A DNA stretch of 64,000 nt from Hyphomicrobiales bacterium (GTDB lineage: Bacteria > Pseudomonadota > Alphaproteobacteria > Rhizobiales > Xanthobacteraceae): the NCBI GenBank assembly GCA_017305715.1, contig JAFKKG010000019.1:124001-188000 (forward strand), read 5' to 3'. Both the position numbers and the translations under genes were made by a program. Positions 52,204-54,478 of the stretch are shown here, in pieces; the first letter of the stretch is position 1, and every line of letters starts with the position of its first letter. The notes beneath the pieces are model-generated. The model ran no database searches, had not been told where the DNA came from, and saw only the letters and a program-made list of their open reading frames with translations.

Positions 52204-52583
52204 GCTGAAATAGATGTTAGATCTCGCAAACTCGCGCTAACCGGACCTGCTCCGAACTCCCTCTGGAGTGGACCGGCCAACGGGCGAGCGAAGATCTTTG
52301 TGATCTCAGAATCGCCGCCCGCAGGTTTCCTTGCTCTATCGCCGCCAAAACTACGATGCTGCTTGTTCTATCCTAGGCATGACCAGACCCGCACATTACT
52401 TTGCAACGGGATTGATAAGGAGGGTAGGAACTAGCGCTACTGCATGAACTCATTCGGTACTGCAATGCTGTACCGGCGCAGGTGCGGCGTCATCGAGCGA
52501 TCGCAAGCGATCGATGAAAGGAAAAGGCGCCAATAGTCAGCTCTAAATCTCTGTCGGCCCAAAAATCAGCTATTCCGGACGAG

Positions 52584-52664
52584 ATGATAAAGCGAAATAA
52601 CATCAATATGTTAGCGCGTCGATTTTGCATTGCCCCCATGATGGATTGGAGCGATCCCCTATAA
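52584..52664 (+). pseudogene. 5' end of a dusA gene, cut off by an insertion
   Basis: ATG 52584 starts a frame that reads RRFCIAPMMDWSDPL and then stops at TAA 52662. RFCIAPMMDW is the conserved N-terminus of DusA, as in KFCTAPMMDWTDRH of the intact gene at 53423. The match breaks off just after the direct repeat. This looks like the original dusA beginning, left behind when an element entered the gene. Confidence 0.72.
52622..52650 (+). repeat. Left attachment-like direct repeat
   Basis: A 29-bp direct repeat with 53503-53531: ATTTTGCA, then a 5-base stretch with three differences, then the identical 16-mer CCCATGATGGATTGGA. It lies in the dusA codons for FCxAPMMDW, the place where dusA-specific integrative elements are known to insert. 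A hairpin CCCCTAT-AAAA-ATAGGGG follows at 52656-52673. Confidence 0.65.
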
Positions 52665-52681
52665 AAATAGGGGTCGCAGCG

Positions 52682-52704
52682 TCATGTAATACTTTTTGTA
52701 ATAC
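52682..52704. repeat. Inner inverted repeat, left side
   Basis: TCATGTAATAC, five T, GTAATAC. Its reverse complement matches 53442-53463 with one base difference in the spacer length and one substitution. It ends directly at the methyltransferase stop codon. Confidence 0.55.
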
Positions 52705-53319
52705 TCAGATTTGGGCCGGCTCTGGCTTCATGAAAACGATCCAGTGAGACTTTGCCGTCTTCCCGCATCGGTTTCCGAACAGAGGCTTTTCGGGTGTCAG
52801 GGCCAGAAGCTCTGACACCTTCACTTCCTCCTCATTCCATTTGAAGATCAAAGTTCCGTTGGGTTTGAGGACACGAAAACACTCCGAAAATCCTGCGCGA
52901 ATATCGTCGCGCCAGTCACCCTCTAGCTTCCCGTATTTCTTCGCGAGCCAACCCGTTTTGCCGTTTCGAATTAGGTGCGGTGGGTCAAAGACGACAAGAT
53001 GGAAGCTGTCCGTCTTGAACGGCATGAACCGGAAGTCCATTTGCTGGTCTGGGGCGATGATCAGTTTGCGAGAACCGCCCGTGCTGGAGCTATCCTTGAG
53101 GGTGTGTTCTTCCTGTCGGATATCTCCGTAAATCGCTCTGCTGTCTTGGCGGTCGAACCAAAACATCCTACTACCGCAGCATGCGTCGAGAACCGTCTTG
53201 CCGTCTTCCATGTTTCCCTCGTCGTGTTGACGAGGTGTTGTTAGTGGCTGATGGTTGCCGCCAACGATTGCGGGAATGTTCTTCGCTTCCATGTCTTCCG
53301 TCTCTTGTTGCGCTCGCAT
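52705..53319 (-). CDS. Phage-type class I SAM-dependent methyltransferase
   Basis: Up to 204 residues. The SAM-binding motif I is LDACCGSRMFWFD and the catalytic-type motif is VVFDPPHL, as in small phage DNA or DNA-like methyltransferases; FRVLKPNGTLIFKWNEEEV is the usual later strand. The start is uncertain: ATG 53319 gives 204 residues, while ATG 53211 (MEDGKTVLDACCG) has a closer ribosome-site-like GAGGG and gives 168. It is the only cargo of the dusA element. Composition is visibly less GC-rich than the flanks, in keeping with transfer. Confidence 0.75.
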   Translation of the reverse strand: MRAQQETEDMEAKNIPAIVGGNHQPLTTPRQHDEGNMEDGKTVLDACCGSRMFWFDRQDSRAIYGDIRQEEHTLKDSSSTGGSRKLIIAPDQQMDFRFMPFKTDSFHLVVFDPPHLIRNGKTGWLAKKYGKLEGDWRDDIRAGFSECFRVLKPNGTLIFKWNEEEVKVSELLALTPEKPLFGNRCGKTAKSHWIVFMKPEPAQI

Positions 53320-53422
53320 TGCGAGTTCTGTTGATGTTCGTTGTGATTTTTTGATGCGAGTTCCACTGGGTTTCGGGTATTACATTTGCCTCCTTGCAAC
53401 AGTCTGATTTCGCTGCCGATAT

Positions 53423-54478
53423 TTGCGTTTTTCGATTTCGGGTATTACAGAAGTATTACATGAGAATTATCCACAGGCTAAACCTTTGATTGCAAAGTGG
53501 AAATTTTGCACGGCACCCATGATGGATTGGACGGACCGGCATTGCCGCGTCTTCCACCGTCTGATGACGCGTCGGGCGCTGCTCTATACGGAGATGCTGA
53601 CGACGGGCGCCATCATCCATGGCGATCGCGCGCGGCTGCTTGGGTTCGATCAGAGCGAGCATCCGGTGGCGTTGCAGCTCGGTGGCTCCGATCCGCGCGA
53701 TCTGGCGGCCGCAGCCAGGATTGGCGAGGATTTCGGCTATGACGAGATCAACCTCAATGTCGGCTGTCCGTCCGACCGGGTGAAGGACGGCCGCTTCGGC
53801 GCGTGCCTGATGGCGGAGCCGGCGCTGGTCGCTGACGGCGTCGCCGCGATGAAGCACGCGGTGAAGATTCCGGTCACGGTGAAATGCCGCATCGGCATCG
53901 ATGATCAGGATCCCGAAGTGGCGCTCGACGTGCTGGCGCGCGGCGTCGTTGCGGCTGGCGCGGATGCGCTGATCGTGCACGCGCGCAAGGCCTGGCTCAA
54001 CGGCCTGTCGCCAAAGGAAAACCGCGACATCCCGCCGCTGGATTACGACCGCGTCTATCGGCTGAAGATCGCGCTGCCCCATGTGCCCATCGTCATCAAT
54101 GGCGGGATCGGCAGCGTGGCGGAAGCAAAACAGCATCTCGCCCATGTCGATGGCGTGATGCTCGGGCGCGCGGCCTATCAGGATCCCTGGCGACTATTGG
54201 CCGTCGATTCCGAATTGTTCGGCGAGGCGCCGCCACACGCCGGCATGAAGGACGTGTTTGAAGCCATGATGCCCTACATCGAACGGCAGCTCGCGCAGGG
54301 CACGCGGCTGCATTCGATCACGCGGCATTTCGTCGGGGCGTTTCATGGCGTGCCCGGCGCGCGGGCGTTCCGCCGGCACCTGGCCGAGCACGGCGTCAGG
54401 CGCGATGCCGGCGTCAGCGTGCTGCGCGAGGCGATCGCGCTGGTTGATGGCAGCGCGGCTGTCTCGATGGCGGCATGA
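53423..54478 (+). CDS. dusA: tRNA-dihydrouridine synthase A
   Basis: A 351-residue FMN enzyme that reduces uridine 20/20a in the tRNA D-loop. FCTAPMMDWTDRHCRVFHR, LQLGGSDPRDLAAAARIGED, NLNVGCPSDRVKDGRFGACL (with the active Cys) and GADALIVHARKAWLNG are the DusA hallmarks. The first ~28 residues up to KWKF are encoded by the inserted element, and no good ATG is present before the conserved core; TTG 53423 and TTG 53488 are the options. A ribosome site is not clear for either. A second copy of its 3' end lies at 57253-57424. Confidence 0.9.
   Translation: MRFSISGITEVLHENYPQAKPLIAKWKFCTAPMMDWTDRHCRVFHRLMTRRALLYTEMLTTGAIIHGDRARLLGFDQSEHPVALQLGGSDPRDLAAAARIGEDFGYDEINLNVGCPSDRVKDGRFGACLMAEPALVADGVAAMKHAVKIPVTVKCRIGIDDQDPEVALDVLARGVVAAGADALIVHARKAWLNGLSPKENRDIPPLDYDRVYRLKIALPHVPIVINGGIGSVAEAKQHLAHVDGVMLGRAAYQDPWRLLAVDSELFGEAPPHAGMKDVFEAMMPYIERQLAQGTRLHSITRHFVGAFHGVPGARAFRRHLAEHGVRRDAGVSVLREAIALVDGSAAVSMAA
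53442..53463. repeat. Inner inverted repeat, right side
   Basis: GTATTAC-AGAA-GTATTACATGA, the mirror of 52682-52704. A further GTATTACAT copy is at 53377-53385, and the 14-mer TTTCGGGTATTACA occurs at both 53371-53384 and 53436-53449. Several short identical sites next to an attachment core resemble integrase arm-type sites. Confidence 0.55.
53503..53531 (+). repeat. Right attachment-like direct repeat
   Basis: The second copy of the 29-bp repeat, inside intact dusA (codons for FCTAPMMDWT). It shares 26 of 29 bases with 52622-52650. Confidence 0.65.

Follow-up and report, generated by a model that had tools for sequence, protein, structure and literature searches.

Islands that insert in the 5' end of dusA have been catalogued, and in the parts of that catalogue drawn on here all 94 islands carry an integrase and the smallest measures 4758 bp (PMC4482086). 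In the 64-kb stretch of DNA that we analysed, called the window below, dusA is preceded by a segment of 881 bp that has the repeats of such an island and a single recognised gene. This raises the question of whether the segment arrived in this minimal form and relies on an integrase supplied in trans, as an earlier note on this DNA had suggested, or whether it is what remains of a larger island. Our analysis leans towards the former.

The segment upstream of dusA is a discrete insertion

The features that delimit the segment, together with its left neighbour, are as follows.

52311..52621, plus strand: putative right-end module of a neighbouring type-B dusA island, outside the 881-bp unit (75-81% identity to type-B right ends)
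52584..52649, plus strand: truncated 5' end of dusA on the left side of the unit, MIKRNNINMLARRFCIAPMMDW (translation; N-terminus as in relatives)
52622..52650, plus strand: attL core, left copy of the direct repeat (26 of 29 bases the same as 53503-53531)
53503..53531, plus strand: attR core, right copy of the direct repeat (repeat comparison)
53486..54478, plus strand: intact dusA, its first codons inside the unit (Pfam Dus, E 5.2e-87)

The two copies of the direct repeat are spaced by 881 bp and match over 26 of 29 bases, which agrees with what the earlier note had described. When the region was resampled 200 times with a first-order Markov model, the best 29-nt pair reached 22. The frame that opens with the ATG at 52584 translates as MIKRNNINMLARRFCIAPMMDWS and reaches a stop within a few codons, and this N-terminus is nearly the same as that of the intact dusA in relatives (for example in loci L099 and L147). 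This indicates that the left copy is a dusA 5' end, and it removes the doubt that the fragment at 52584 might be unrelated to dusA. The right copy continues into the intact dusA, for which the in-frame TTG at 53486 is a possible start, with the longest frame running from 53423. Thus the insertion lies in the dusA 5' end between semiconserved direct repeats, and the intact gene has a new 5' end that comes from the element while the old one is left cut. With a GC content of 50%, the unit lies below both the window (61%) and dusA (67%).

When the two flanks of the unit are joined, the resulting sequence gives unbroken alignments with dusA of six genomes. The best of these alignments are with G201 (L147; 82% over 1316 bp) and G015 (L099/L150; 81% over 1302 bp), followed by G020 (L114; 83% over 1059 bp), and those with G295, G115 and G055 are also unbroken with a shorter left side. 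Because dusA of these six relatives aligns straight across the junction, the 881 bp constitute a discrete insertion. The interior of the unit is present in none of the dusA loci compared (E 1e-5), and there is no second copy of the unit elsewhere in the host genome.

The left flank from 52311 to 52650 resembles the right end of a further dusA island, of the type called B by its arm sites (see below). Specifically, window positions 52311-52654 are 75-81% identical over 362-373 bp to right ends in L147, L099/L150 (one genome, G015) and L117, and 70% identical to the right end in L119, and type-B arm sites GGTACTGC/GCTGTACC are present at 52456 and 52467. The unit thus sits in tandem with what appears to be another element at the same target. 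A left core for the type-B neighbour was not found, the genome having two exact cores in total. Note that the window to the left of 52311-52650 is filled by a catabolic-looking gene cluster that may be cargo of the type-B island.

The unit contains a methyltransferase gene and putative arm sites

Between its cores the unit holds the following features.

52651..52677, minus strand: terminator-like hairpin GCGATCCCCTATAAAAATAGGGGTCGC, between the core and the arms (folding)
52685..52692, minus strand: arm-like site GTATTACA (exact 8-mer; +36 from the core)
52697..52704, minus strand: arm-like site GTATTACA (exact 8-mer; +48), abutting the methyltransferase stop codon (TGA then GTATTACA)
52705..53319, minus strand: orphan DNA methyltransferase, longest frame 204 aa (phrog_954, E 2.7e-74)
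53377..53384, plus strand: distal arm-like site GTATTACA (exact 8-mer; -136 from the right core)
53442..53449, plus strand: arm-like site GTATTACA, pair member (exact 8-mer; -71)
53453..53460, plus strand: arm-like site GTATTACA, pair member (exact 8-mer; -60)

The mirrored GTATTAC repeats that had been pointed out earlier are real and are stricter than described, as they form five identical copies of the 8-mer GTATTACA that all lie inside the unit, and the rest of the 64 kb has no further copy. By itself, a count of five carries modest weight, since 2 of 200 resamples also contained some 8-mer at five or more copies. The layout of these sites, that is their pairing and their distances from the cores, is the stronger evidence, and it resembles that of other dusA islands. 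Specifically, the two pairs have spacings of 12 and 11 bp and core offsets of +36/+48 and -60/-71, and the left arm pairs of other dusA islands in the genus are GTGTGCA at +38/+49 (type A), GCWGTACC at +60/+72 (type B) and GGCACAC at +59/+70 (type D). We infer from this likeness in sequence layout that the GTATTACA sites are probably integrase arm sites. Types A and B occur with intact DusA integrases adjoining dusA in L153 and L152, and no integrase was found with type D arms or with the GTATTACA arm type of the window. The 330 bp upstream of the core of another intact DusA integrase, that of L093, contain none of the four arm types, and the arm types are therefore incompletely charted. As for the hairpin, the minus strand of 52640-52720 folds at -20.6 kcal/mol (z -2.6), with 4 of 200 shuffles folding equally well.

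The single cargo gene was correctly described as a phage-type methyltransferase. Its frame is the only long one in the unit, it also matches PADLOC MTase_II (type II methyltransferase; E 8.6e-77), and it has no Pfam match and no solved structural relative. Translation likely starts at the ATG at 53211 (residue 37), judging from the alignment start of many phage relatives, which lies nearby. The family-library search covered this frame, which is overlapped by two frames of 89 and 96 aa, and no gene other than the methyltransferase was recognised in the 881 bp.

In 265 genomes of the genus (one per species and thus without sister strains, own genome included) the methyltransferase has one other match, in G266, which has 62% identity and is located at mazG. 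In a sample of 397 genomes of the order, the own genome was the single one to match. The larger island that sister strains might have carried at this site, with the present segment as its deletion product, was likewise found in none of the 265 genus genomes. A search of plasmid DNA returned methyltransferase stretches only. Among 79 viral loci with a relative of the methyltransferase, eight have a tyrosine recombinase at most 2.3 kb downstream of it; note that two of these eight (L003 and L012) had also been submitted as input for the generic recombinase profile. A further locus that seemed by eye to bear an integrase (L004) was not confirmed by the profile search. Scanning the 79 loci for the core with up to three mismatches gave four matches, each with three mismatches and each lacking paired arms.

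Integrases and related arm sites elsewhere

In catalogued dusA islands the integrase lies beside dusA. Here neither the DusA-integrase profile nor the generic tyrosine-recombinase profile detected one in the unit, as the earlier note had stated, and the generic profile found none in the window, where its best match (E 0.034) lies in a distant frame. The host genome, which may be that of a Bradyrhizobium or a close relative, has nine matches to PF00589, two of them side by side, and by tblastn its closest integrase to a DusA integrase reaches 23% identity over 154 aa. Four intact DusA integrases (in L082, L093, L152 and L153), three of which were used to build the DusA-integrase profile, score 432-781 bits with it, and the host's own integrases score at most 19. 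Thus a DusA-type tyrosine integrase, which the earlier note had proposed to look for, was recognised in the host genome by none of PF00589, tblastn or the DusA profile, and as a result the unit now looks stranded. On held-out loci the generic profile gave nine matches in 8 of 13; a tenth match, in L136, repeats a training protein and is outside the nine. In four other genomes (L101, L149/L091, L151 and L087), similarity to DusA integrases beside the dusA core stops after ~80-125 residues.

Other copies of the unit, which the earlier note had also thought worth seeking, were absent from the own genome, and in 84,980 species genomes, a set that may omit the host genome and its close relatives, the exact patterns (GTATTAC at the right end, GTAWTAC at the left end) gave no dusA site with paired arms. 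Viral contigs likewise contained no exact patterns with GTAATAC/GTAWTAC arms. The control patterns, which were run on viral contigs only, gave just one match for type A and none for type D, which makes the viral contigs a weak test. A search of phage DNA with the right end returned four records, among them a 37-bp match to the dusA core (E 0.02) in Burkholderia phage DC1, where an integrase adjoins that match.

Small dusA units without an integrase across the genus

The conserved dusA start pattern is present in 259 of the 265 genus genomes, many of which have 2-5 copies, and dusA is a tandem hotspot in this genus. Copy positions were re-queried for 97 genomes, of which all but a few have at least two copies. 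Reading through the matches listed, we found at least 21 dusA units no longer than 20 kb, that of the window among them; positions in G250, G034, G256, G258, G259, G260, G027 and G263 are outside this count. Two further loci, L085 and L086, were dropped as dusA loci, as their pattern matches lie in another gene. Twenty of the units, each of at most 18.2 kb (the 18.5-kb unit of G280 being left out), were searched for an integrase, and none of the 20 has a tyrosine recombinase by the generic profile at E 0.1; the DusA profile gave two matches only, at E 0.28 and 0.86. The earlier statement that dusA-associated islands normally carry an integrase is consequently true of the catalogue, as far as the cited parts go (PMC4482086), and does not extend to the small units tested in this genus.

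Three units among the matches listed are shorter than 1.5 kb, namely those of the window (881 bp), G008 (875 bp) and G042 (1326 bp). The G008 and G042 units have common ends (right end 83% identical over 224 bp, left end less alike). Their contents differ, and there is no match between their outer flanks. The common ends are not proof of transfer, as their 83% hardly exceeds the 80% identity of the two dusA genes. One ORF of the G042 unit (L137, 1937-3263) looks PIN-like by eye and matches PADLOC weakly (E 0.001), and the unit has another, unknown ORF.

A dusA unit of 3.6 kb, also lacking an integrase, is 91% identical between G115 and G295, whose dusA genes are 81% identical and whose short compared flanks do not match. 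Its cargo, by eye, is an antitoxin-like gene and a large helicase-like ORF. Near-complete copies are present in four species (L113, 506-4136; L139, 1948-5638, in dusA orientation; L164; L166), the other three being 88-95% identical to L113. The copies in G015 (95%) and G119 (88%) also adjoin a dusA core, with neither having an exact left core within 1.5 kb. This unit is the best evidence here for travel of an integrase-less dusA unit, and it may have travelled as a passenger in a larger composite.

Units of similar size at mazG

The match of the methyltransferase in G266 lies in a unit at a second target. The start pattern of this target, named mazG on the basis of an annotated mazG under a match, was found in 195 of the 265 genus genomes and was absent from 70. 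Seven genomes have a doubled mazG 5' end, and in all seven the two copies are close (352, 486, 646, 711, 733, 742 and 1510 bp; L195-L198, L199, L201 and L202). The 1510-bp unit of G266 (L199, 1023-2533) carries a second ORF and the relative of the methyltransferase, which is oriented towards its target gene in the same way as the window's. The left ends of the mazG units have a common core, and a stretch close to CCAATATACATTTT is present in six of the seven, with G243 diverging there. Compared with each other, the units match in DNA near their ends only, except for one 21-bp match inside those of G152 and G266, and their cargo is unlike.

The duplicated gene ends at mazG are ~75-80 bp long. 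The mazG units lack obvious paired arm sites, and for this reason their mechanism may differ. No recombinase was detected in the 3.0-5.0 kb around the mazG units (best E 0.073), and no larger mazG island with the mazG start pattern was found among the 265 genus genomes. The left-end pattern had no match in viral contigs, and in a plasmid search with a mazG unit only the mazG part matched. Eight cargo ORFs from the small units at both targets (G042, G266, G261, G243, G187, G152, G043 and G008; the set left out the second ORF of G042 and a small ORF of G264) were compared with Pfam, with none over the cut-off and one weak match below it (Tcp10_C, E 0.0015).

Discussion

We consider it somewhat probable that the 881 bp form a discrete unit, flanked by att sites and lacking an integrase, that arrived minimal and needs an integrase in trans. 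In the mechanism that we propose, a tyrosine integrase of the DusA family, provided in trans, would recombine the circular form of the unit, through its core and arm sites, with the core in the dusA 5' end. Once integrated, the unit would provide the first codons of dusA and its upstream region, with the old 5' end left on the far side. On this reading the unit would consist of an orphan methyltransferase and cis sites, namely two arm pairs and one further arm site, and as this cargo comprises nothing else the unit would be movable only with the enzyme of another element. The layout of cores and arms, together with the precedent of the catalogued dusA islands (PMC4482086), points to a DusA-type integrase as the agent of insertion, and the unit may move in trans. 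It appears to have been minimal already on arrival and not to have shrunk in place. Against this stand the single known copy of the unit, the lack of a recognised DusA-type integrase in the host genome, the lack of a like-armed dusA site by exact patterns in the 84,980 species genomes and in viral contigs, and the 8 of 79 viral loci with a tyrosine recombinase near a relative of the methyltransferase.

The main alternative, which we regard as possible and yet rather unlikely, is that a larger dusA island or prophage decayed in place, losing its integrase and all else except its two ends and one gene. Loss of integration and transfer genes with retention of att sites is how CIMEs are defined in the cited account (PMC5704250), truncated or broken DusA integrases do lie beside dusA cores in four genomes of the set (those stopping after ~80-125 residues), and the recombinases near the viral methyltransferase relatives would suit a decayed prophage. 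However, no integrase or other remnant was detected in the 881 bp, and none of the five arm sites, the two cores or the single frame is disrupted. These parts are also tightly packed, to the point that the stop codon abuts an arm site. In addition, several units of this size in the genus have common ends and unlike cargo, so that deletions would repeatedly have had to stop at the right place. We therefore favour arrival in minimal form over decay, on account of the intact and closely packed cis parts, the lack of a remnant and the recurrence of like units.

A third explanation is that homologous recombination brought in a foreign dusA 5' end with its upstream gene via short homology, leaving a junction that only looks like att. 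A RecA route is conceivable for the mazG units, given their long duplications and the lack of obvious paired arms. At dusA, however, the 29-bp repeat lies where islands are known to insert, and the spacing of the arm pairs is like that in islands with an integrase, which makes this explanation improbable for the window. Finally, short repeats are common and an 8-mer can reach five copies in a resample, but the notion that an unrelated gene was inserted upstream of dusA beside a coincidental repeat is scarcely credible, since 26 of 29 bases exceeds the resample maximum of 22, the left fragment is coding dusA, and the empty layout seen in relatives by the joined-flank alignment refutes it.

On the reading that the unit arrived minimal, several known systems share some of its properties. 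Integron gene cassettes are small cargo with flanking recombination sites whose recombinase acts in trans, and their sites are those of IntI. As described in the cited reports, Acinetobacter dif modules similarly place small cargo between recombination sites with the recombinase in trans, here at XerCD sites (PMC6449649, PMC13141974). The unit is like the dusA-specific islands, as described for these, in its dusA 5' site, its semiconserved direct repeats and the 5' end supplied by the element, and it differs from the islands in the cited parts of the catalogue by having no integrase and only a fifth of the length of the smallest (PMC4482086). It is like CIMEs in having no integration or transfer genes, in keeping attL and attR and in standing in a tandem array (PMC5704250). 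CIMEs as presented there are decayed ICEs or IMEs, and the unit may or may not have such a past, of which no sign was seen: no remnant was detected in it and no larger relative was found among the 265 genus genomes. Small units with like ends and different cargo also recur. Islands without integration modules at ssrA in Dehalococcoides also lack an integrase and lie in tandem at one target gene, and their authors think that they were possibly moved with their neighbours; the system differs in having a serine recombinase and a tmRNA gene as its target, according to the part of the report cited (PMC3146451).

Small size and the recurrence of one- and two-gene units at two 5' targets set the unit apart from these systems, and among the matches listed in the open-licence literature we found no report of such units. 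We tentatively suggest, as a possibility that we would not yet call probable, that the genus harbours a class of recombinase-less, cassette-like units of ~0.35-1.5 kb with one or two genes and conserved ends, which insert site-specifically in the 5' ends of housekeeping genes (dusA and mazG), restore the gene that they enter, and pass from one species to another via integrases borrowed in trans. Such a class, if true, would be a chromosomal counterpart of integron cassettes that is missed by TIGER/Islander, which, as its description states, requires an integrase and excludes islands of less than 2 kb (PMC12424338). The units also allow a direct test of the minimal DNA on which a DusA-type integrase can act and of whether arm-paired ends suffice. 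If they do move in trans, surveys that start from the integrase would miss them, and they would constitute an unrecognised vehicle for the gain and loss of genes upstream of housekeeping genes.
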